Numbered from the stretch's first letter, positions 47,038-59,804 are shown. The stretch is 64,000 bases of DNA from Myxococcota bacterium (GCA_022842935.1 JALHOP010000005.1:337307-401306), one strand, 5' to 3'. Notes: generated by a model not told the origin, from the letters alone. Made by a program: numbers and translations.

Positions 47038-47582
47038 CAGTTGCACTCGATAGGGTACACGGCCCAAGAATAGGTTGCTGTCAGGCCGCTTTCGAGGACG
47101 ACGCGACCGACGACGGTGGGCTCGTCGTCGATCGAGTCGTTGAACTCACGGTCCGAAACATAGAGCTCGATGACGTGCACGTCGCTCGGCCGCTCGAGGA
47201 GGATGGGGTTGTTGGCTGTAACGCTCTCCTGTGCGACGCGTCCGCGACCGGGGGTCGGAGGCGCTTCACCGATGCGCGTGTCGAGGATGTCTTCGGGGTC
47301 GCGGCGAAAGTAGTCGATGAAGAAGCGGTAGTAGAGTGTGTCACGTAGGTTGTCGTCGCCGATATTGGCGAGGAACAGCGTCGGCAGGCCGTTGCAGTTG
47401 AGGGTAATCGGTTCGCCGTCGAAATTCGGTAAGACCGGCTCGATGAACGGCGGGCGGTTCGCGTCCAGGCCCTCCTCGTCGATGGGCGGCGGCAGCACGC
47501 ACGCCGTCCCGATTGTGGCGCATAACAACATCGACACCACCAGCAGCTTAGACGAGCACGGGGCGTGCCAATTCAAGGGCAT
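47037..47582 (-). CDS. Lipoprotein of unknown function
   Basis: This is a 181-residue protein from ATG 47582, which shares one base with the stop of the sigma-54 activator gene; CGGAG lies close upstream. The signal LLVVSMLLCATIGTAC gives a possible lipidation site at Cys28. The mature part is acidic, with a Pro-rich start (VLPPPIDEEG), LYYRFFIDYFRRDPEDILDT and a beta-rich C-terminal half (VHVIELYVSDREF). Cys residues in LNCNGLP and the last IECN could pair. The next lipoprotein gene overlaps its stop. I know of no family. Confidence 0.78.
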   Translation of the reverse strand: MPLNWHAPCSSKLLVVSMLLCATIGTACVLPPPIDEEGLDANRPPFIEPVLPNFDGEPITLNCNGLPTLFLANIGDDNLRDTLYYRFFIDYFRRDPEDILDTRIGEAPPTPGRGRVAQESVTANNPILLERPSDVHVIELYVSDREFNDSIDDEPTVVGRVVLESGLTATYSWAVYPIECN

Positions 47583-49402
47583 CACTCCGACGGAGCTTCG
47601 CCGTCTTCGCGCTCGAGGTGGCGGAAGATGGTGCGGGGGTCGACACCCAAGTCGTGAGCCGTCTTGGTGCGATTGCCGTTGTTCCGCGCCAGGACGTCGT
47701 TGATGTACTGCCGCTGGAAGTCTTCCTTGGCCTGCGCGAGTGGTACCACGGGCGCAAGATCTGCGTCGGAGAGCTCCATGTCCTCGGGGGCGAGTTGCAC
47801 GCGCTCCGCCATGATGACGGCCTTCTTGATGCGATTCTCGAGCTGCCGGATGTTTCCCGGCCAATGATACTTCTTCATGAGCATCACGGACTGGGGCGAG
47901 AAGCCTTTCACCTTCGAGGTGTACTCTTCGGTGTATCGGCGCAAAAAGTAGCGCGCGATGAGCATCAGATCTTCGCCGCGGTCGCGAAGTGGCGGCAGGT
48001 GAATGCCCACGACGTTCAAGCGATAGTAGAGGTCCTCGCGAAACCCACCGCGCTTGATCTCGTCCTCGAGATGCTTGTTGGTTGCCGCGACGATGCGAAT
48101 GTCGACCGCTTCGGGCTTGGTGTCGCCGACCTTGGTGACCACTTTTTCTTGCAGCGCCCGCAGGAGCTTCACCTGAAGGGACACCGGCATCTCGCCGATT
48201 TCGTCCAGAAACAGGGTGCCTTTGTTGGCCGCCTGGAAGCGGCCATCCCGCGTCTGCACCGCACCTGTGAAGGCGCCGCGCACGTGACCGAAGAGCTCGC
48301 TCTCGAGGAGATTTTCGGGAATGGCGCCGCAGTTGACGACAATGAACGCCTTTCCCTTGCGGTCCGAGCGCTCATGGATCTCACGCGCGATGAGTTCCTT
48401 GCCGGTCCCTGTCTCACCGGTGATCAGAACGCTGACGTCGGTGGGGGCCACCTTGCGGATCTTGCGGAAGACATCCTGCATCCGCTCCGACGTACCGACG
48501 ATCTCGCCGAAGCGCTTCTCCTCGAGCGCTTGCCGTAGCTGCGCGTTGTTCGTGCGCAGGTTGTCGAGGAGCATGGCGTTGCGGATGAGCAGCGAAGCCT
48601 GCGCCGCGAAAACGGTCACGACCTCGAGCATGTGTGGCTCGAAGAGGTTCACGACTTTGTTCGAGCCCAGATAGATGAGCCCGAAGAGCTCGCCCGCCTC
48701 CGTGAGAGGGACGCACATGACCGACAGCAGACGCAGGTTCACGACGGAAGCGCTCGCCTTGAACTCGGCGTCATTGACCGCGTCGCTGACGATCACCGGC
48801 TGCTGCTCGCGCACGACCTTGGCGATGATGCTGTCCGAAAGCTCGGTGATGACCGCGCTGGATTCGCCGTGGTCGATGTTGCGTGCCACTTTGATCTGCC
48901 AGGCGCCGTCCTCGAACAGCACGAGGAAGCCGCGGTCGGCCCGGGTGAGCTCGACCACCTTATCCATCAACGTGGTGAGCAAACCGCCAAGCTCGCGGCT
49001 TCGTAGCAGCTTCTCGCTGAACGCTACGACCTCGCGGTAACCGAATATCTCGTTTTTCGGATCGACTCCGCGCGGCTCGTCCGCGTTAACGGAATCATGC
49101 AGCGCAAAGCCCAGCCGCGTCTCACCGAACTCGAGAACGTCGCCCTCGCGAAGCCGCACGCGCTTTTCTTTCTTGCCGTTGACGACGATGGGGCGGCCGC
49201 GCCCGAGGGAAGCAACGACGTAGGCGTCGTCCTCACGTAGGATGTGCGCGTGGTCGGGGAAGAGGTCGTCTCCCGTGACCTGTACGTCAGCTGTCGGGTC
49301 GGTGCCGATGCGCGTGATGTTCTTGTAGAGCGGGATGCGCTGGTCACCCGCGCCTTGCTCTTTCAGCAGAATCAGGACCGCCACGGCCGTTTGCCTTATC
49401 AA
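47582..49402 (-). CDS. Sigma-54-dependent activator with FHA, GAF, AAA+ and Fis-type HTH domains
   Basis: This is a 606-residue enhancer-binding protein. Residues ~15-105 form an FHA fold, ~140-275 a GAF domain, ~305-540 the AAA+ domain and ~565-605 an HTH. AAA+ motifs are Walker A GETGTGKE (Gly329), the sigma-54 contact loop GAFTGA at 376-381, Walker B GTLFLDEIGEM and YHWPGNIRQLENR. The HTH is NRTKTAHDLGVDPRTIFRHL. The FHA core departs from consensus: the GR, SR-x-H and NG positions read GT, FP-x-H and GR, so pThr binding is doubtful. It is cotranscribed with a Ser/Thr kinase two genes upstream. The gene overlaps the next genes on each side. Confidence 0.95.
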   Translation of the reverse strand: MIRQTAVAVLILLKEQGAGDQRIPLYKNITRIGTDPTADVQVTGDDLFPDHAHILREDDAYVVASLGRGRPIVVNGKKEKRVRLREGDVLEFGETRLGFALHDSVNADEPRGVDPKNEIFGYREVVAFSEKLLRSRELGGLLTTLMDKVVELTRADRGFLVLFEDGAWQIKVARNIDHGESSAVITELSDSIIAKVVREQQPVIVSDAVNDAEFKASASVVNLRLLSVMCVPLTEAGELFGLIYLGSNKVVNLFEPHMLEVVTVFAAQASLLIRNAMLLDNLRTNNAQLRQALEEKRFGEIVGTSERMQDVFRKIRKVAPTDVSVLITGETGTGKELIAREIHERSDRKGKAFIVVNCGAIPENLLESELFGHVRGAFTGAVQTRDGRFQAANKGTLFLDEIGEMPVSLQVKLLRALQEKVVTKVGDTKPEAVDIRIVAATNKHLEDEIKRGGFREDLYYRLNVVGIHLPPLRDRGEDLMLIARYFLRRYTEEYTSKVKGFSPQSVMLMKKYHWPGNIRQLENRIKKAVIMAERVQLAPEDMELSDADLAPVVPLAQAKEDFQRQYINDVLARNNGNRTKTAHDLGVDPRTIFRHLEREDGEAPSE

Positions 49403-50280
49403 AACGTCAGTTGAAACAACAAGCCGCCGCTGGGACGCGCCAGGACGGACGGATCGTAGCGTGGTGCCTCCAGCGCCGAGGACACCGGAGAGACCTGGGT
49501 GCGTGGAGCAATGGCGGGCGTTACCTGCAAGCGCGCGTGGTACACGCCGATGCCCCAGGTCAGCGCAAACAGTGACAGAGACGCATACTGCGTGATCTGC
49601 AGGCCTCGCACCAAGCCATGGTCTCCAGAGGGATAGTCGTCACCGATGCCGTAGGTGGCGTAAAGATAGGCGGCGATGTTGAGGCCTAGGAGTACGGCCT
49701 CGGTGAGCGCGAAGAATAGGCCCATCGATGCATCACCGTTCTCGAATTGCCCGACGCCGAACGGCAGAAAGCTCGTCACACCGCGGGCGCCCGTCGTTGG
49801 CGGTATGCTCGCTTCGATGCGTCGAACCGCCGATGCGTTTCCGCTCTGCTCGGCGCGGCGCAATCGGATGACATCGAGTTGTGGCTTTGCCTGCTCGCGG
49901 ATGCGCTCGAACTCGTCGATGATGGGGGGTGGGATCGAGAACGGATCGAGCTGGTAGTCGGGGTCGATGTACAGAAGCTTCTCGAGCTCCTCCCGCATAT
50001 CGACGGGGCGGCTCAACAGGTAGTACGAGAGCCCGAGATATTTGCGGGCCTCGATGACCTGGCTGTCCGACACCAGGCGCATTGGATAGAGCAGGGCGCG
50101 CAGCTGATCGATGGCGGCACCGTAGTTGCCATAGGCGTACTCGTTGATGGCGCGGCGCAGCAGCTCATCGGCGCTCGAGCGCTCTGCGTTGTCCATTTTG
50201 GCGGGCACGGTCATGCCGTTCCCGGGCGGTTGCTGCGCCGTGGGAGCCGTGAGCAGGAGAGCCGCGACCAGCGCCAACAT
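49399..50280 (-). CDS. TPR-like periplasmic/membrane protein of unknown function
   Basis: This 293-residue protein has a signal-like N-terminus (MLALVAALLLTAPTAQQ). Residues ~40-120 contain tetratricopeptide-like helices (LLRRAINEYAYGNYGAAIDQ and ARKYLGLSYYLLS). A charged helical stretch follows, then two hydrophobic segments (MGLFFALTEAVLLGLNIAAY and YASLSLFALTWGIGVYHA) and an SSALEAPRYDPSVLARPSG tail ending in Phe. It lies between the Ser/Thr kinase and the sigma-54 activator, four bases overlapping the latter. The TPR part could recruit partners to the membrane. The family is not recognised. Confidence 0.75.
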   Translation of the reverse strand: MLALVAALLLTAPTAQQPPGNGMTVPAKMDNAERSSADELLRRAINEYAYGNYGAAIDQLRALLYPMRLVSDSQVIEARKYLGLSYYLLSRPVDMREELEKLLYIDPDYQLDPFSIPPPIIDEFERIREQAKPQLDVIRLRRAEQSGNASAVRRIEASIPPTTGARGVTSFLPFGVGQFENGDASMGLFFALTEAVLLGLNIAAYLYATYGIGDDYPSGDHGLVRGLQITQYASLSLFALTWGIGVYHARLQVTPAIAPRTQVSPVSSALEAPRYDPSVLARPSGGLLFQLTF

Positions 50281-50293
50281 GAGTCCTGAAGGG

Positions 50294-52201
50294 TTACAGC
50301 TGGTCGAGCTTCACATCAAGCCTTCGTTCCTGACCGGGCTTGAAGTCGACCACCTTGCGCCATTCGAGATCGCCGCGTCGAACGACCACCTCGAGCGACT
50401 GCGACCCAGCGCCTAAGGGAAGTGGAACGAAGATGGGCTCGTTGCGGGTCTGAGCGTTCACGAGCCAGGTGCGGCCAGCGACCTCGACGGTGGCGCCGTC
50501 GGGCGCCTTGTCGACGAAGAGCTTGGCAGGCAAAGGCTGCAAGCGCACGACGACGAGCTGTGCCGGGTTCACATCGTCGACCGAGACGTTCATTTCGCTC
50601 TCGTAGGCCAGCGGATTGGTGAAGCGAAGACGGTGGGTGCCGTGGGTAAGGTCGAGCGTGAAGGGGCCGATGCGGTCACGGACGACAGGCTCGGCTCCAT
50701 CGTCGACATATGCGGTCACCACGTTGACAGCGTTGAAGCGCACAGGGCGCATCGGGGTTGGCTTGACTGGCACCGGGTCGGCGGGCGGATCGCGCGGAAG
50801 CTTGGGGTCGTCCGGCGGGTTAGCGGGGCTCGCCACGGGTGGCTGCTTGGTGGGAGTCGCCTTCGCGGGTTGCGTGCGGTCCGAGATAGCGGATGTCGCT
50901 GTGTCCCTGGCAGTGGCGTCCTGATTGCGATTGTCGGTGATTGCCGGGTCGGCGATCGGCAAGCGCGCATCGGGGCTCGGATCTTGGCTCTCGGCGATTG
51001 GCGCTCGGCTCTCCGAAGTCGACTCACGGGTCTCGCCGACCCGCCGCGGCTCTTCTTGCTCCGTCTTCCAAGACATGGCCCCGTACGCGACTCCGGCGAG
51101 CAGCATCGCCACCAAGGTCGCGACCGCTCCTGCGCGCGCGGCCTTGAGGAGCGAGACCCGGCGTCCGAGCCGGCGCAGGAGCTTTCGCACCTCGGCGTCG
51201 TGTGGCTTGCTCGCGAGCACTCGGTCGAAGTGCTCCATGGCAACGCCATGTTGACCGCGCGCGAGCGTTTCTTTGCCGAGCTCGACGTAGCGCGTCGTGA
51301 CCCGCTCTTCGAGTTGCTCGCAGTAGTCTCGGGGCTCGGCGAGGAGCTTCGGTAACTCGACTTCCCAATCGAGTCCAAGCGCTCGGAGTTGAGCGTCGAT
51401 GGCGTCGCGAAGCTCGCCTGCGTTGGCGTAGCGCTGCTCGGGTAGGCGCTTCAAGCATCGCACGAGGATGCGGCTGAGCCCGGCGTGGGTTCGCGGATTG
51501 TTCTGCTGTGGCAGTGGGTACTCGCCAGCCGCGATGCGCTTGAGCAACGCGTGCGGCGAGGGTGCTTCGAATGGGAGGCGGCCGACCACCAGGTAGTAGA
51601 GCATGGCCCCGAACGAGAAAATGTCAGCGCGCTCGTCGGTCGCGTAGCCTTCGATGTACTCTGGCGCCATGTAGGCGGGTGAGCCCAAGAGAGTCCCCGT
51701 CATGGTCATCGCCTGATTGTCGAGGATGCGCGCGATCCCGAAATCTGTGAGCTTGAGCTCGCCCGTACGGCCGAGAAGGATGTTCTCGGGCTTGAGGTCG
51801 CGATGGACGACGCCTCCCTTGTGGGCGGCGTCGAGCGCGTCAGCGATTGGTCGTGCGAGGAGCAGCGCAGCCTCGGGGCAAGAGAGCGGACGGTCGCGTA
51901 CGACATCCGCCAGAGCGGACCCAGTGACGAGCTCCATGACGATGTAGCTGGTCGAGGCTTTCTCGCCGGAGTAGTCGAAGATCTCGATGATGTTGGGGTG
52001 GCGAAGCCGCGCGACCGCCACCGCCTCGCGATGAAACCTCTCGCGGGCTTCTGGTTGCTCGGCCAGAAACGTGTGCATGACCTTGATGGCGACGTCACGC
52101 TTGAGCTGCGTGTCGTGCGCTCGGTACACGACGCTCATACCGCCGTGACCGATCTCGGCGGTGAGCTCGTATTTTGCGAGGCGCGTGCCGACGAGGCTCA
52201 T
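50294..52201 (-). CDS. Eukaryote-like Ser/Thr protein kinase with a transmembrane helix and C-terminal PEGA-like domain
   Basis: This is a 635-residue Hanks-type kinase. Residues 1-275 hold the kinase domain: GHGGMSVVY glycine loop, Lys40, HRDLKPEN with Asp135, TDFGIA and GSPAYMAPE. All catalytic residues are intact. A membrane helix lies near 360-380 (AVATLVAMLLAGVAYGAM). A long Pro/Thr/Asp-rich linker follows, and then a beta-rich extracytoplasmic domain with LFVDKAPDGATVEVAGRTWL, like PEGA repeats. ATG 52201 with GAGG upstream is preferred to GTG 52216. It is the first gene of a six-gene operon that also encodes an FHA-GAF sigma-54 activator. A terminator lies 40 bases upstream of its start, belonging to the preceding gene. 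Confidence 0.95.
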   Translation of the reverse strand: MSLVGTRLAKYELTAEIGHGGMSVVYRAHDTQLKRDVAIKVMHTFLAEQPEARERFHREAVAVARLRHPNIIEIFDYSGEKASTSYIVMELVTGSALADVVRDRPLSCPEAALLLARPIADALDAAHKGGVVHRDLKPENILLGRTGELKLTDFGIARILDNQAMTMTGTLLGSPAYMAPEYIEGYATDERADIFSFGAMLYYLVVGRLPFEAPSPHALLKRIAAGEYPLPQQNNPRTHAGLSRILVRCLKRLPEQRYANAGELRDAIDAQLRALGLDWEVELPKLLAEPRDYCEQLEERVTTRYVELGKETLARGQHGVAMEHFDRVLASKPHDAEVRKLLRRLGRRVSLLKAARAGAVATLVAMLLAGVAYGAMSWKTEQEEPRRVGETRESTSESRAPIAESQDPSPDARLPIADPAITDNRNQDATARDTATSAISDRTQPAKATPTKQPPVASPANPPDDPKLPRDPPADPVPVKPTPMRPVRFNAVNVVTAYVDDGAEPVVRDRIGPFTLDLTHGTHRLRFTNPLAYESEMNVSVDDVNPAQLVVVRLQPLPAKLFVDKAPDGATVEVAGRTWLVNAQTRNEPIFVPLPLGAGSQSLEVVVRRGDLEWRKVVDFKPGQERRLDVKLDQL

Positions 52202-52240
52202 ACCTACCTCGTACACTCAACTGCGGTCGTCGAAAACAGC

Positions 52241-52291: not shown

Positions 52292-54334
52292 CTAGTTGTG
52301 CAGGATACGGAACTCGATACGGCGGTTGGCCGCTTGGCCGTCCTTCGTCGCGTTGTCCGCAACCGGTTTGTCGGAGCCGTAGCCGATCGCCGTCATGCGG
52401 TCAGCCGCGACACCCTTACCGGCTAGGTACTTCTTCACGGAGTCAGCGCGACCCTGCGAGAGCACCAGGTTCTTCTCTGCGTTACCCACGTTGTCGGTGT
52501 GGCCTGCGATCTCGAGCTTGAGATCCGGGTACTCGATCAAGGTCTTCGCGATGCCGTCGAGCGTCGCGTAGCTGTCCTTGGTGAGACGCGAGCTCGCGGT
52601 GGCGAACTTCACGCCCTCGAGCTTGCCGTTGAACTTGGCGACCGCGGCGGGCAACTCGTCGGGGCAACCGTCCGTGTCCTGGAAGCCGTTCATCGTTTCT
52701 GGCTCCTTCGGGCAGGTGTCGGCGGCGCCGGCGATGCTGTCGCCGTCGGGATCCGGGTTCGGGCAGCCGTTCGGCATGTCGCCGGCTTCTTGCGGGCAAG
52801 CGTCCGCGTCACCCACGACGCCGTCCTTGTCCGGATCCGGAGGCGGGCAGCCATCGGGCGCGACACCGGTCACGCCGGGGCACTTGTCGACGTTGTCCAT
52901 CACGCCGTCGTTGTCCGCGTCGACTGGAACCGGGCAGCCGGTTCCGTCGTTGCCGGCCACGGTCGGGCAAGCATCGTTGGCATCGGGCACGCCGTCGCTG
53001 TCGCTATCGCGGAGCGGGGTGTCGGTGACGGTGGGCTCCGCGGCAGGCTTACCACCGCAGCTGTCTTCGTTGCCGAACGCCATGCCGACGCTCAAGGCGG
53101 CGACCCATGCGCTGGTACGGAATGTGCCAACCACCGGCTGACGCGCCGACGGAGCGTCCAGGGTCTCACGCGACTTGGGCAGCAGGTACCAACCGCCAGC
53201 GTCCACCCAGAAGTGGCAGGACGGACGTACCGTCACACCAGCGGTGACGATGTTGCGCACGATGTCGGGCAACGTGTGGTCGAGCGACTCGCGCGGAATC
53301 GGGGTTGGGTCATACTCGTAGCCGACGCGTGGTACGACGACTCCGAGGTCGAGTTCGACGCCGGTGCGAACGCCCCAACGGTCTTCGTACTGGCGCACCG
53401 AGGTCGAGGTCGAGCCATCGGGGAAGGTGAAGAGCAGGCGCTCGAAGTCCGACCAGTCGTTCCAGATGGCGTCGGCTTCGATTTCGAGCATGTTGGCGAT
53501 CTTGTAGGCACCGCCGATGATCACCTGCTGCGGAATATCGACGCCGTCGACGTTGCCGGTGCCGTCCGGCGGCAGAAGACCGCGCACCGGCGCTGGGGCG
53601 TCGAAGTCGACGTTGTCGGTACCGGTAAGGCGAGTGCGGATCGGCAGCTGATAACGCGCGCCGAGCGACAGGCCAGGGATGAACTCGGGACGGTACAAGA
53701 CGCCGAAGTGTCCGCCAACGCGGAAGTCGGTTCCGTCGAGGGCGACACTGCCGTAGCTGTTGTTACCGAATGCGATGTCGCGCGTTAGGTAGGCAGAGGC
53801 GTGTACGAGGTCGAGCGTCGCTCCGATCGACAGGCCCTTGATACCGAGCGTCGAGAAGTCGAGCGATGCGGTCGGCTGAAACCACAGCGTTCGCAAGCTC
53901 TGCTCACGCACGACGGTACGGCCCGGCGAGTTTTCTCCCCACCGCACGGTCGCGCCGTACGAGGAGTTGAAGCCGAGACCCAGTGCGAGGAACGGCAAGA
54001 CCTTGCCGCCCAAATACGCATGAGGCGCCGGCAGAACGCCAACGTCGTCATACGTGCGCGGTCCGCCGCCCTCGGGCACGAAGCTGTAGCTCGGGGAGAT
54101 GAGCGACGCACCGAGATAGAGCTGGAACTTGCCGTCGAGGGTCGCGAGACCTGCCGGGTTGTACCAGATGGTCGAGGCGTCACCGGGGCTCGCAACGACA
54201 GCGTTGGAGCGACCGGTGGCGCGGGCGCCCTGGTTGCTCAAGTAGAAGCCCGCAGCCTGCGCGATGCTCGAGGAGAGCATGACGACGCTGGCCAGGATGC
54301 CGACGGAAATCTTTTTAAACATAGTCAATTTCAT
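52292..54334 (-). CDS. FadL-type outer-membrane barrel fused to TSP3 repeats and an OmpA peptidoglycan-binding domain
   Basis: This 680-residue protein joins three parts. A signal peptide (MFKKISVGILASVVMLSSS) precedes a FadL/TodX-like barrel, ~27-430, with the family motif SPGDASTIWYNPAGLA. At ~440-555 are four thrombospondin type-3 repeats (for example DSDSDGVPDANDACP), each a calcium site. At ~565-680 is an OmpA C-domain with LEIAGHTDNVG and ANRRIEF. FadL carries long-chain fatty acids across the outer membrane, and the OmpA part would anchor it to the cell wall. ATG 54334 has AGGAAG seven bases upstream. An ATG at 54349 overlaps the preceding stop and is an alternative. It is coupled to the lipase gene upstream. 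Confidence 0.93.
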   Translation of the reverse strand: MKLTMFKKISVGILASVVMLSSSIAQAAGFYLSNQGARATGRSNAVVASPGDASTIWYNPAGLATLDGKFQLYLGASLISPSYSFVPEGGGPRTYDDVGVLPAPHAYLGGKVLPFLALGLGFNSSYGATVRWGENSPGRTVVREQSLRTLWFQPTASLDFSTLGIKGLSIGATLDLVHASAYLTRDIAFGNNSYGSVALDGTDFRVGGHFGVLYRPEFIPGLSLGARYQLPIRTRLTGTDNVDFDAPAPVRGLLPPDGTGNVDGVDIPQQVIIGGAYKIANMLEIEADAIWNDWSDFERLLFTFPDGSTSTSVRQYEDRWGVRTGVELDLGVVVPRVGYEYDPTPIPRESLDHTLPDIVRNIVTAGVTVRPSCHFWVDAGGWYLLPKSRETLDAPSARQPVVGTFRTSAWVAALSVGMAFGNEDSCGGKPAAEPTVTDTPLRDSDSDGVPDANDACPTVAGNDGTGCPVPVDADNDGVMDNVDKCPGVTGVAPDGCPPPDPDKDGVVGDADACPQEAGDMPNGCPNPDPDGDSIAGAADTCPKEPETMNGFQDTDGCPDELPAAVAKFNGKLEGVKFATASSRLTKDSYATLDGIAKTLIEYPDLKLEIAGHTDNVGNAEKNLVLSQGRADSVKKYLAGKGVAADRMTAIGYGSDKPVADNATKDGQAANRRIEFRILHN

Positions 54335-54348
54335 CGTGGGCTTCCTCA

Positions 54349-56658
54349 TTACTCGGCGGCCGCAGCGGCTGCGGCGAGTTGGGTTGCCAAGAAGGTGAAT
54401 GCGTCAGTCTGCATCTGAGCCGTCGCTGCTTGGCCCTGGGGCGTCGCTGCGGCGGGCTGCAAGAGCGAACCGTGGCCATAGGTGACTGTGTCGCTGCTGT
54501 AGTTCAACCAAGCAGCGGCCGTCGCAGAGTCGGCAAGACCGGCGCTCGGGGAGAACGGCGGCACTGTCGGCGTCGTCGCGTCAGTCGCGCTGGCGAACCC
54601 GAGGAGGCGGCCGATGATGGCGGTCGACTCGTTCGGTACTACCGCGTCACCTTCGACTTGCTGCACGAGCACGTGCAGGTCACCAGCTGCCACGCGGCCA
54701 CCGATGACGTCGAGGAAGTTCACGCCGTCGCATGGATCGGCGATCCAGCGGGTGGCCGCTGCGAACGAGCGGTAGGCCGGCTCGGACGCCACAGCGATGG
54801 GGAGCGCCGTATTGGTCTGAACGCAAAGCGCGTCGACCTCGTTGAACGAGTTGTCTGGCTGCAGCCAGAGCTTGCCTTGCAACGTGCCGTTGTTGATCAA
54901 CGCGTCGATGAGCGGGCACTTGATGCGGTTGCTGTCGGTGTTCTCGAGGATGGTCGTGAGACTCACGCCGCCGACGTTGAACACGGCCGCCTTGAAGCCA
55001 CCCTGCATGGCCACAGGTAGCGTTCCGATGATGGCGCCGAGCGACTGGCCGATATAGCCGACCGCGTCGGCGTTGATCGCGAAGCCGTTGCAGTTCGCGA
55101 CGCCGTCGGGGGCGGCGCACTCGTTGGTCATGGCGGCGATGAGGCTCATGATGTCGAGCGCGCCCTGACGGAACCCGTCACGCGTCGCCGGGAGGTTCGA
55201 GCTCAAGATTGGCGCGAAGCACGCAGGGCTGAGCGTCGGGTCAGCAGCGCCCGCGTCGCTTGGGTCCTGGCAGGCCGAGCCGGTCGGGAAGATTTGCACC
55301 GCGCGCGAGCCGTGGAGCGGCCAGTCGATGGCGACCGTCGCGATGCCGAGGCCAGCGAGCTGGCCCGCGATGGCGAGCAAGTCGCCCTTCGAACGGGTGA
55401 TGCCATGCGCGAAGACCACCAGCGGATAGCCGGTAGCAGGCGCCGGAGTTGCCGGCCGCACTGCGAGGATCTCGAGCGGATCCCCCGGTTGCTCGGTGGG
55501 ATTGAGGGGGTTGCTCCACGGACCGGGAACCGGGTCGGTGAGCGCGCCAGTGTTGGGGCCGGCGACCTGGAAGTTCGGAGCGTCGAGGGCGCCGCCGAAG
55601 ACGTTGCCGATGGCCGCGCAAGGCAGCTGGGTGCAGATGCCAGCGCCCAAATTGGCCTCGTAGAATTGCTCGACGGTGGCGCCTGCGGGCGCTCCTGCGA
55701 TCGGGCCGAACGGGCCAGCGAGAGCGGCATTTTCGGTCACGAACGCGGCCGGGCCGGCGCCAGCCGGGTCAAGAGGCGCCTCGACGGTCTGCGTCTTGAA
55801 AGACCACGCGATGAGAATGTCGTCGCGCGTGACCTCTTCACCGGTGACGGTGTCGAGCGCGACGTCGACGTAGGGAAGGAACGTCTGGTTGAGACCGAAC
55901 AGCCGCTGGATACCAGCCAGCGACTCAATGGTGTCGGCCACGCCGTTGGCGTTCGCGTCGCGCGGGTCGAACTGGTCGAGCGGCGTGTTGTTGAACACGA
56001 CATCGCTCGTCGTCAGCACGCCGTTTTCATCCTGATCGAAGATGCTGACCGGAGCGGCGAGCTGGCGGCTGAAGAACCAGGTCGTCGACGGCTGGAACTC
56101 TTCACCGTCAGTCGAGGTCACGCCCTGCAGGACGGCCACGGTGTAGACGGAGTCGTCGTCGAGCGGTACCACCGGCGTTACGGTGATCGCTTCGATGACG
56201 TTGGCCGCGCCGCACGTCGGCAGGGCCTCATCGTAACGAATGGTCTGGAAGCGCCCAACCTGGGCCGGTACTGCTACGGCGTCCGTCGGATCGGCCACCC
56301 GCTTCACCAGGAACACGCGCCCTGCGGTGCTCGCCAGGTCGACCTGCGCCGTGAAGGTCGCGAAGACCGCTGGCAGCCAGGTGCCCGCGCCGTCGAGCGT
56401 GTTGAGCACGCCTTCGCGCAGGCCCTGCGCCCCGGTCGATTCGCCGCACGTCGCCGGCAGCGTGTTCAACCCGGTCGTAGGCGACAGAAGGAGAACGTTC
56501 GGGAATGGAATGATGCTGTTCGACGGGTCGAAATCCTGGATCTGCGGTGAGCTCACCAGCAGTTCGGCGGTCTCGGTCTCATCGACCTCGGCTTGGTCCA
56601 AGCAACCGGCCGCGATAGCGGTCATTGCGAGGACTACGGGGATGCGAAAACGCATCAT
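54349..56658 (-). CDS. VolA/Pla-1-type extracellular lipase lipoprotein
   Basis: This 769-residue lipoprotein (lipobox IAAGC, Cys19) has the bacterial lipase N-terminal domain: FDPSNSIIPFPNVLLLSP is the family's signature, followed by several all-beta modules. The alpha/beta-hydrolase core has VVFAHGITRSKGD (oxyanion, His418), the nucleophile Ser539 in GYIGQSLGAIIG, the probable Asp671 in VEGDAVVPN and His729 in TYGHGSL. The family includes Vibrio VolA, a surface lysophospholipase. In VolA the operon partner is FadL; here the FadL fusion gene follows with a TAATG overlap. The expected substrate is exogenous lysophospholipid or another acyl ester. GGAG precedes the paired ATGs at the start. 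Confidence 0.9.
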   Translation of the reverse strand: MMRFRIPVVLAMTAIAAGCLDQAEVDETETAELLVSSPQIQDFDPSNSIIPFPNVLLLSPTTGLNTLPATCGESTGAQGLREGVLNTLDGAGTWLPAVFATFTAQVDLASTAGRVFLVKRVADPTDAVAVPAQVGRFQTIRYDEALPTCGAANVIEAITVTPVVPLDDDSVYTVAVLQGVTSTDGEEFQPSTTWFFSRQLAAPVSIFDQDENGVLTTSDVVFNNTPLDQFDPRDANANGVADTIESLAGIQRLFGLNQTFLPYVDVALDTVTGEEVTRDDILIAWSFKTQTVEAPLDPAGAGPAAFVTENAALAGPFGPIAGAPAGATVEQFYEANLGAGICTQLPCAAIGNVFGGALDAPNFQVAGPNTGALTDPVPGPWSNPLNPTEQPGDPLEILAVRPATPAPATGYPLVVFAHGITRSKGDLLAIAGQLAGLGIATVAIDWPLHGSRAVQIFPTGSACQDPSDAGAADPTLSPACFAPILSSNLPATRDGFRQGALDIMSLIAAMTNECAAPDGVANCNGFAINADAVGYIGQSLGAIIGTLPVAMQGGFKAAVFNVGGVSLTTILENTDSNRIKCPLIDALINNGTLQGKLWLQPDNSFNEVDALCVQTNTALPIAVASEPAYRSFAAATRWIADPCDGVNFLDVIGGRVAAGDLHVLVQQVEGDAVVPNESTAIIGRLLGFASATDATTPTVPPFSPSAGLADSATAAAWLNYSSDTVTYGHGSLLQPAAATPQGQAATAQMQTDAFTFLATQLAAAAAAAE

Positions 56659-56717
56659 GGCTCTCCTTGGCCGGCGAAAACAGCCGAGCCGGTCTCGGTT
56701 GCATCGCGCGGGTCGTT

Positions 56718-56729
56718 ACGTGCGCACGT
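56718..56729. promoter_or_regulatory. 12-base perfect palindrome in the lipase/acyl-CoA synthetase divergent region
   Basis: ACGTGCGCACGT is a perfect palindrome placed 60-71 bases before the lipase start and about 176 bases before the acyl-CoA ligase start. A second inverted repeat, CCGAG-CCGGT-CTCGG, lies at 56684-56698, and GCGATCGC lies at 56814-56821. The 246-base space is the only region that can hold both divergent promoters. Palindromes of this sort are typical operators of TetR-type fatty-acid regulators, but no such regulator is encoded in the window. Confidence 0.35.
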
Positions 56730-56904
56730 CGGTAAGGCGTTTTCGAGCGCGGGTCAATCTCGATGTGATGCAAACAGGGACTTTTGTTGCCAAAATCGTA
56801 AAAGTGCGACATTGCGATCGCGGTTTTGGGAATTCACCCCCCGCGTGGTGGGTTCCACTCGCGACTTGCAGAGCCTGCCGACCTAGAGCTAGAGAGCCCA
56901 CCTC

Positions 56905-58722
56905 ATGGCCCGTACTACAATCCTTGATTTGTTCGTCGACAATGCCGAGCAGCACGCAACGAAGGTCGCAGCGCTCGTCAAGCGCGACGGTCGCTACGAA
57001 GAGCGCACCTGGAAGCAGCTCTACGACGAGGCCATGCGTGCCTCGACTGGCTTGCTTGCCCAGGGCGTCAAGCTCGGCGACCGCGTCCATATCGTCTCGA
57101 ATACGCGTCTCGAGTGGGTCATTCTCGACATGGCGATCGTGCACGCCGGCGGCATCACGGTTCCGGTCTACCCATCGTCTCTCGCCGAGGAGTGTGGCTA
57201 CATCGCGCAGAACAGCGGCGCCGTGCTCGCGTTCGTCGAAGACGAGAAGCAGACCGAGAAGATGCTGGCTGAGCGCAAGAATATGCCAGAGCTGCGCCGG
57301 GTCGTGCAGATGACCGGGGCTGTGCCGGCGAGCGCCGACGGTTGGGTCATCACGTACGACGCATTCATCAAACAAGGTGGCGACGTCGATAAGGTCAAGG
57401 CCGAGCTCGAGACGCGGCGCAAGTCGCTTCAGAAGGACTCGCCCTTCACACTCATCTACACGTCCGGCACCACGGGCAAGCCGAAGGGCGTCGTTCTTAC
57501 CCATGACGCGATGGCCTACGAGGCCGAGGCGGTGCAAGCGATCAACGTGCTCCGCGAAAGCGACATCCAGCTGTTCTTCTTGCCGCTGTCGCACTCGTTC
57601 GGTCGCGTCCTCGAAGCCGCTTGGCTGTCGTGCCGCTACATCATGGCCTTCGCCGAAAACATGCAGACGATTCGCGAGAATCTCGGTGAAGTGCGGCCGA
57701 CGATCATGTGCGGTGTTCCGCGCGTGTTCGAGAAATTCTTCAGCGCGGTGGTCCAGAAGGGGACGGCGCCGGGTGGCCTCAAGGCGAAGCTGTTCAACGC
57801 CGCCGTCGAGCTCTCGCAGAAGAACGGTGAGGCCGAGAAGGAAGGACGTTCACTGGGACTACGGGACGGCATCAGGTTCGCGGTCCTCAAGAAGCTTGTC
57901 TTCTCGAAGGTAGGCAAGGGCCTGAGCGAGCTGCTCGGCGGGCGTATGCGCATCCTGGTCTCGGGCGGCGCTCCCTTGTCGCCGAAGATCAACTGGTTCT
58001 TCCGAGACGCCGGTATCGAGATCCTCGAAGGCTACGGCCTCACTGAGACGTCTGCGGCAAGCTTCGTGAATCGTCCTGGCCAGAACAGCATCGGCTCGGT
58101 CGGCCTGCCTCTACCCGGCACGGAAGTGAAGATCGCCTCCGACGGCGAGATCCTCATCAAGGGCCGTGGCGTGATGAAGGAGTACTGGAACAATCCGTCC
58201 GCTACTGCGGAGGTTCTGAAAGACGGCTGGTTCTCGACTGGCGACATCGGAATGATCGAGCCCGGCGGTACGCTCCGGATTACCGACCGCAAGAAGGACA
58301 TCATCGTCACGGCGGGCGGCAAGAATGTTGCCCCGCAGAACATCGAGAACGTCCTCAAGACCCACAAGCTCATCTCGCAGGCCGTCGTCCACGGGGACAA
58401 GCGCAAGTATCTGACTGCGGTCGTCACGCTCGACCCCGATGTGCTCAAGACCGTCGCCAAAGAGGAAGGTCTGGGCAACGGCTCGGTCGAAGAGCTCAGC
58501 AAGCGCCCTGAGATCGAAAAGATGGTCGACGCTTGGATCACCGAGGTGAACAAGCAGCTGGCGAGCTATGAGAGCATCAAGCGCTTCGCCATTCTCGACC
58601 ACGATTTTTCGGTCGAAAGCGGTGAGATGACGCCCTCGCTCAAGATCAAGCGTAAGGTCGTCAACGAACGCTACAAGAAGCTCTTCGACTCGATGTACGA
58701 GGGTGCTGGCGGCGGCGACTGA
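56905..58722 (+). CDS. Long-chain fatty-acid-CoA ligase (AMP-forming)
   Basis: The 605-residue enzyme activates fatty acids to acyl-CoA through an acyl-adenylate. The P-loop-like motif is LIYTSGTTGKPKG. Then come FLPLSHSFGRV, GYGLTETSA, GWFSTGDIG, and the hinge/ATP motif ITDRKKDIIVTAGGKNVAPQN; a late MTPSLKIKRKVV carries the catalytic Lys (LKIKRK). The pattern places it with the FadD15/long-chain subgroup. It is transcribed away from the VolA-like lipase and the FadL fusion, so released and imported acids could be activated in the same cell. The following lipoprotein gene overlaps the stop by one base. Confidence 0.95.
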   Translation: MARTTILDLFVDNAEQHATKVAALVKRDGRYEERTWKQLYDEAMRASTGLLAQGVKLGDRVHIVSNTRLEWVILDMAIVHAGGITVPVYPSSLAEECGYIAQNSGAVLAFVEDEKQTEKMLAERKNMPELRRVVQMTGAVPASADGWVITYDAFIKQGGDVDKVKAELETRRKSLQKDSPFTLIYTSGTTGKPKGVVLTHDAMAYEAEAVQAINVLRESDIQLFFLPLSHSFGRVLEAAWLSCRYIMAFAENMQTIRENLGEVRPTIMCGVPRVFEKFFSAVVQKGTAPGGLKAKLFNAAVELSQKNGEAEKEGRSLGLRDGIRFAVLKKLVFSKVGKGLSELLGGRMRILVSGGAPLSPKINWFFRDAGIEILEGYGLTETSAASFVNRPGQNSIGSVGLPLPGTEVKIASDGEILIKGRGVMKEYWNNPSATAEVLKDGWFSTGDIGMIEPGGTLRITDRKKDIIVTAGGKNVAPQNIENVLKTHKLISQAVVHGDKRKYLTAVVTLDPDVLKTVAKEEGLGNGSVEELSKRPEIEKMVDAWITEVNKQLASYESIKRFAILDHDFSVESGEMTPSLKIKRKVVNERYKKLFDSMYEGAGGGD

Positions 58723-59804
58723 TGTCGCGTGTCCGTTTTGGTGGCGCGCTGGCCGTGGCCTTCGCGGTCGGCTGCGCTGCCAAAGTTCAAGTGCGGCCAA
58801 CGCCGTTCAAGGACAGCGATGCCTTCAAGAAGGTCCGTAAAGACGCCCTCGGTTTTCTGGACTACGACTTCAATGGTGACGGTATCGCCGACGCGGTCGT
58901 GGTGACGCGTGACGGGCAGGGGATGCGTCCGCAGGTTTTCGTGCAGACCCCGAGTGAAAACGGTGGCGTCTGGTCGCAAGCGTGCGCTGGGCCCGTGCTC
59001 GCTGGCGAAGAGCTCGACACCTTGCGTTGGGTGAAACCCGCTGAGCGTTTGCTCCTCTTGGTCGTCGCAAGCACCGACAATCCCGATACGCTGCAGCAGT
59101 CGTTCGCGTTGCTGCCCGCTAACCAGCCCTGCACCGCCGTGTTCCAGGAGCAAGTCAATCTGCAGAAGCCAGGCTATGAGGTGGTCAGCCCAGGAGAGGT
59201 CCCGGCCGGGGTGCTCGTCGACGACGCTGGCATGGTGCACGTCATCGATCGCGCACAGATGGTGCAGCTCCGCGGCGCTTCCGGAGAAGTCGAGGTGCTC
59301 AAATCGGTGCGTGAGCGCGTCTTGTCGGACGATGGGGTGCGTATCGTCGTCGACGAGAGGCCACGCGGCTTCGTCGCTCCGCGCGGGGTCCGAGTCTCCT
59401 GGCGTCGCGACGCCCCCTCGGCAAGCGAGGACTTGTCTGTCTTGACCGACGAAGACCGCGCTACCTCGTTCGTCGCCTTGGCGGGCGACGAGGGGGTGCT
59501 AGAGATCGACAGCGGCGATCGCCCGATGGTCATCCTCGACGTTGCGCACGGCTGCGGCGTTGGCACTGGGGCACTGACGCTTTCTCCGGAATCCGCTTCT
59601 GAAGACACCCACGTCGTCGGCAAAGCCCCGGACCCGCGGTCGTTCGTCCAAGGCGTGGGGCATCGCCCACGCCTTGCAGCGGGAGAGCGCAGAGACGTGC
59701 TCGTGTTGCGTGAGGCGGTGAGCAAGCTCGCATTGCGCGTCGGTCCCGTCGACGAAGCCCGTTGCTTGACTGATGTGCGAGCCTACGGCTTCCTTTCTCC
59801 CTGA
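58722..59804 (+). CDS. Lipoprotein with an FG-GAP/VCBS-like calcium loop, unknown function
   Basis: This 360-residue lipoprotein has Cys18 in AFAVGCAAK. After it is DALGFLDYDFNGDGIADAVV, the DxDxNGDGxxD loop typical of FG-GAP/VCBS beta-propeller repeats; only one such loop is obvious. The remaining ~270 residues appear to be beta sandwiches, with several Cys residues, including ACAGP, QPCTAV, HGCGVGTG and EARCLTD. The start shares one base with the stop of the acyl-CoA ligase gene (TGATG), a strong sign of cotranscription. It may be an envelope partner of the lipid-uptake locus. The family is not known. Confidence 0.78.
   Translation: MSRVRFGGALAVAFAVGCAAKVQVRPTPFKDSDAFKKVRKDALGFLDYDFNGDGIADAVVVTRDGQGMRPQVFVQTPSENGGVWSQACAGPVLAGEELDTLRWVKPAERLLLLVVASTDNPDTLQQSFALLPANQPCTAVFQEQVNLQKPGYEVVSPGEVPAGVLVDDAGMVHVIDRAQMVQLRGASGEVEVLKSVRERVLSDDGVRIVVDERPRGFVAPRGVRVSWRRDAPSASEDLSVLTDEDRATSFVALAGDEGVLEIDSGDRPMVILDVAHGCGVGTGALTLSPESASEDTHVVGKAPDPRSFVQGVGHRPRLAAGERRDVLVLREAVSKLALRVGPVDEARCLTDVRAYGFLSP

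Follow-up and report, generated by a model that had tools for sequence, protein, structure and literature searches.

A two-gene lipase-FadL operon in a Myxococcota bacterium, with a channel fused to a TSP3-OmpA tail

In Vibrio, VolA is a surface lysophospholipase, and volA is described in the original prediction as lying in an operon with fadL. VolA of Vibrio cholerae frees fatty acids that are imported by FadL (PMC12208996). Proteins of the FadL/OmpP1/TodX family (PF03349) share a barrel, an N-terminal hatch motif and a mature AGF start, and the canonical FadL stops at the barrel. OprF/OmpA-type proteins are built from a small barrel (OMP_b-brl) followed by TSP3 repeats and an OmpA domain. 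Addition of a periplasmic domain to FadL has a precedent in Treponema pallidum, whose FadL-like proteins carry a C-terminal periplasmic extension folded as an alpha-helical TPR bundle (PMC8407342). The window analyzed here, a stretch of 64,000 nucleotides from a Myxococcota bacterium, encodes a lipoprotein lipase that resembles VolA in its TIGR03502-type sequence and in being paired with a FadL channel. The channel has the barrel, hatch motif and AGF start of its family. Unlike the Vibrio partner and the canonical FadL, it runs for ~255 further residues, through TSP3 and then OmpA. This tail is the one seen in OprF/OmpA-type proteins, although the barrel is FadL instead of OMP_b-brl, and it differs from the Treponema pallidum extension, which is TPR and not OmpA.

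The features of the locus, numbered from the first letter of the window, are:

47582-52216: block of kinase, 293-aa protein and FHA regulator genes (counterpart in locus L170, 10976-15647)
52240-52279, minus strand: intrinsic-terminator-like hairpin at the end of the lipase-fadL operon (17-pair stem with 12 GC, -35 kcal/mol, T-containing tail)
52292-54334, minus strand: FadL-TSP3-OmpA fusion gene (probable start 54334; open reading frame opening at 54349, 685 aa)
54349-56658, minus strand: lipase gene, 769 aa, predicted lipoprotein (lipobox IAAGC|LDQ; TIGR03502 match)
56659-56904: divergent intergenic region between lipase and ligase, read from the sequence
56905-58722, plus strand: acyl-CoA ligase gene of the ANL superfamily, 605 aa (PF00501; linkage comparison)
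58722-59804, plus strand: lipoprotein gene with weak FG-GAP similarity, overlapping the ligase stop by 1 base

The original prediction had placed three open reading frames at 54349-56658 (minus), 52292-54349 (minus) and 56905-58722 (plus), with the lipase and ligase starting divergently across a gap of 246 bases, and both the frames and the gap were confirmed. It had also proposed translational coupling at TAATG. The lipase and fadL frames do touch at this sequence, but fadL translation more likely begins at the ATG at 54334, preceded by a Shine-Dalgarno-like GAGGAAG; close coupling of the two genes holds even with this start. Downstream of the pair lies a serine/threonine kinase gene, set apart by the hairpin, a terminator-like element that would close the lipase-fadL operon ahead of the kinase. 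Terminator-like sites numbered three against 3.4 expected by chance, and the argument for termination therefore rests on the strength of this stem. A search of the shared lipase/ligase intergenic region revealed no sigma-70-like promoter, which is weak evidence, and Rfam gave no RNA match in the region.

The lipase matched TIGR03502, the NCBIfam profile of the VolA/Pla-1 family phospholipases, with 138.1 bits (E=3.1e-40), far under the curated cut-off of 383.9 bits. Profile positions 6-210 and 441-789, the N- and C-terminal parts, were both matched within the single lipase frame. The bacterial lipase N-domain that had been predicted was borne out as a motif and not as a Pfam match: PFPN is conserved in the lipase alignment, whereas the window lipase was not hit by Lipase_bact_N (PF12262) at a threshold as loose as E<=1, and membership of PF12262 was rejected. 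The N-terminal part is recognized by TIGR03502 alone. Among 12 aligned homologues, PF12262 matches six and TIGR03502 matches all. The predicted catalytic triad is correctly indexed, and the alignment supports a Ser-Asp-His arrangement with the following codons:

54472-54474, minus strand: catalytic His729
54646-54648, minus strand: catalytic Asp671 (GDxVVPN)
55042-55044, minus strand: catalytic Ser539 (GQSLG)

Ser539 and Asp671 are invariant across the 12-sequence alignment, and a His was read by eye at or beside the 729 column in every row. Profile searching recovered solved relatives among esterases and platelet-activating factor acetylhydrolases; all three catalytic regions (Ser, Asp and His) align with the solved esterase 9bd4, and Asp671 aligns with the acid of the solved esterases. 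Lipobox Cys19 is nearly invariant in the same alignment. The predicted VolA/Pla-1 assignment is partly upheld, in that every aligned homologue matches TIGR03502, but the window score and the PF12262 miss set this protein apart from the VolA family. By profile and alignment, this divergent lipase is related to VolA/Pla-1 without scoring as a family member, and is very likely a catalytically active lipoprotein of the serine lipase/esterase type. Because the score lies under the cut-off and PF12262 fails, the substrate of VolA is not transferable to it.

The partnership with FadL extends well beyond the window. Lipase relatives were found in 45 of the 195 genomes of the phylum that were searched, and the pairing was counted over 39 related lipase frames of at least 1,300 bases each in the fetched neighborhoods. 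In 19 of these 39, the next gene downstream is a FadL gene on the same strand, and in one more FadL is convergent with the lipase; two further lipases, both truncated, also have a FadL partner. The cases of lipase with FadL span at least six families besides that of the window. The partner is present with most of the strongly matching lipases and absent with most of the weak ones, about half of the looser relatives being without an adjacent FadL. The count, the spread over families and the presence of the partner with most of the strong matches together point to the lipase-FadL operon as an old conserved unit. The lipoprotein lipase and FadL barrel were predicted to be tightly linked, and they are: the two genes make up one tight operon, and numerous related genomes have kept the pair. 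The convergent case is found in genome G194 (L034, 4178-8095).

The channel itself had been described as a FadL-type barrel. This is correct for a full-length barrel and overlooks an in-frame fusion to TSP3 and OmpA, arranged as follows:

53075-54280, minus strand: FadL (Toluene_X, PF03349) barrel, residues 24-425, with the N-terminal AGF...NPAG hatch motif seen in the alignment
52670-53014, minus strand: TSP3 (thrombospondin type 3) calcium-type repeats forming a linker, residues ~446-560 (PF02412, E=1.5e-7, three stretches)
52322-52606, minus strand: OmpA C-terminal domain of the peptidoglycan-binding type (GHTDNVG...SQGRAD), residues 582-676 (PF00691, E=1.6e-21)

The barrel covers profile positions 2-421 of 421 of PF03349 with 137.2 bits against a gathering cut-off of 29.7 (E=7.1e-40), and in a PDB search the known FadL structures 2r88, 2r89 and 2r8a match at E ~1.6e-4. 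The tail covers positions 2-98 of 98 of PF00691 with 76.9 bits against a cut-off of 27.2, and OmpA-family domains in the PDB match it with E down to 1.8e-37. In OmpA domains, Asp and Arg positions hold the peptide of peptidoglycan; the GHTD and SQGRAD motifs are both present in the channel. Since the tail comes after the last barrel strand, it should face the periplasm, where it would hold the channel to the wall. We compared 89 FadL frames from 88 loci, comprising two barrels of this genome, one of them the window's own, and the frames fetched from relatives. The window protein alone is OmpA-positive, and the TSP3-OmpA fusion was found in none of the 87-88 other fetched frames, which come from related genomes of the same phylum. 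The nearest channel relatives have either no tail or a proline-rich, low-complexity one. A scan of named genomes with the fusion protein returned only OmpA- or TSP3-type proteins, with no high-coverage FadL-OmpA match. Literature searches found no FadL-OmpA fusion, and a wall-fixed fatty-acid channel architecture is not described in the literature found. Elsewhere in the same genome, an OprF-like paralogue at G000:C2:433301-434041 (L142) has a tail 54% identical to that of the channel, which suggests such a protein as the source from which the TSP3-OmpA module was copied; this paralogue is probably related to the donor. The profile of TraB (NF033763), a protein of myxobacterial outer membrane exchange, also matches the TSP3-OmpA half (E=3.9e-46); identity as TraB was rejected, with 157 bits against a cut-off of 700 and a match confined to the tail.

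The assembly is a draft of 46 contigs and the genome holds many OmpA paralogues, circumstances in which a fusion could arise as an assembly artefact. However, one unbroken frame runs through the junction with even GC3 (0.81, 0.83 and 0.87), the synteny with the downstream kinase is conserved, and, in a comparison with 11 paralogues, no stretch of identical DNA is longer than 16 bases, so there is no repeat to cause a chimera. The unbroken frame, even GC3 and lack of a repeat make a repeat-driven chimera unlikely, and we regard an artefact as very improbable. The ligase was predicted to be an added third gene, which would make the locus a dedicated route of lipase, channel and ligase under a shared divergent promoter. 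It matches PF00501 (AMP-binding) at E=1.8e-75 and carries the YTSGTTGKPKG motif and a C-terminal Lys. G192, a genome from another family of the order, has the genes arranged alike (ligase 62% and lipase 39% identical to those of the window), but conservation there covers the entire block of lipoprotein, ligase, lipase, FadL, kinase and FHA regulator and not merely the three genes. This is the only other genome in which the ligase stands beside the pair; none of the remaining lipase-FadL loci has an orthologous ligase alongside. In G194, of the same order, ~230 bases separate the ligase from the kinase, a space that holds neither lipase nor FadL; the lipoprotein and regulator are in place, and the lipase and FadL sit on a different contig. 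G190 has a ligase orthologue (59%) without a lipase match. A three-gene route is accordingly quite unlikely; the three-gene locus as a unit was rejected by these linkage comparisons, and the ligase is a neighbor, by chance or lineage-specific, outside the conserved lipase-FadL unit. Its steady, conserved partner is the FG-GAP-like lipoprotein, which adjoins it in the window, G192 and G194. The kinase, 293-aa protein and FHA/sigma-54-type regulator form a conserved block that adjoins the ligase in both G192 and G194.

For the lipase-FadL pair, the reading we hold to be on balance probable is a two-gene envelope operon that takes up fatty acids from outside lipids, with a wall-tethered channel. 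The VolA/Pla-1-type lipoprotein serine hydrolase, probably at the outer-membrane surface, would cut acyl esters, with phospholipid, lysophospholipid or acylglycerol as candidate substrates, and the freed fatty acid would pass to the co-expressed FadL-type channel. The TSP3-OmpA tail, acquired by the channel in this lineage, should bind periplasmic peptidoglycan and keep the channel in place. By analogy with Vibrio VolA/FadL, the pair most likely hydrolyses lipids outside the cell and takes up the released acids. More tentatively, a surface lipase combined with a FadL bearing an OprF/OmpA-type anchor could make a stationary lipid-intake site, an idea to which we give some weight without leaning toward it. 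The same genome has 10-11 acyl-CoA dehydrogenase genes, which makes fatty-acid oxidation plausible; since these genes are present and the genome has just one other full-length relative of the ligase, activation of the imported acids may fall to the divergent ligase. Feeding on prey membranes, as originally proposed, is unsupported: in the transcriptome of Myxococcus xanthus co-cultured with prey, expression of the FadL-like genes MXAN_7040 and MXAN_6116, which may or may not be the orthologues, goes down (PMC9548883). That prey does not induce these genes also fits a role in envelope maintenance instead of feeding, in which the lipase clears misplaced or damaged outer-membrane lipids of the cell or its kin, the wall-tethered channel recycles the acids, and the OmpA tail, a structural tether, serves mainly envelope integrity. 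Known envelope-maintenance families give no match, however, and the lipase matches point to VolA/Pla-1, whose characterized member acts on outside lipids; we consider maintenance unlikely.

The lipase-FadL partnership is known from Vibrio, and the channel fusion is unusual. Our analysis carries the partnership into another phylum, Myxococcota, where the operon is conserved in many families, so that the idea of a surface lipase feeding a channel becomes testable beyond Vibrio, and it separates the conserved unit of lipase and FadL from a chance or lineage-specific neighbor, the ligase. A natural FadL joined to a domain of the peptidoglycan-binding type also offers a tool for asking if the place and mobility of the channel matter for lipid uptake.

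The only other FadL gene of the genome (G000:C9; L073, 5648-8637, minus strand) is directly followed by a gene for an alpha/beta-hydrolase lipoprotein. This hydrolase matches Abhydrolase_1 at E=3.5e-7, and its nucleophile elbow position reads ADGFGA, with no obvious Ser, suggesting that it may be inactive. Many of the related lipases (L052, L055, L059, L072 and similar) are ~1,000 aa long and have a second copy of the N-terminal P-x-PND motif region, so that the N-terminal domain looks duplicated in these relatives.
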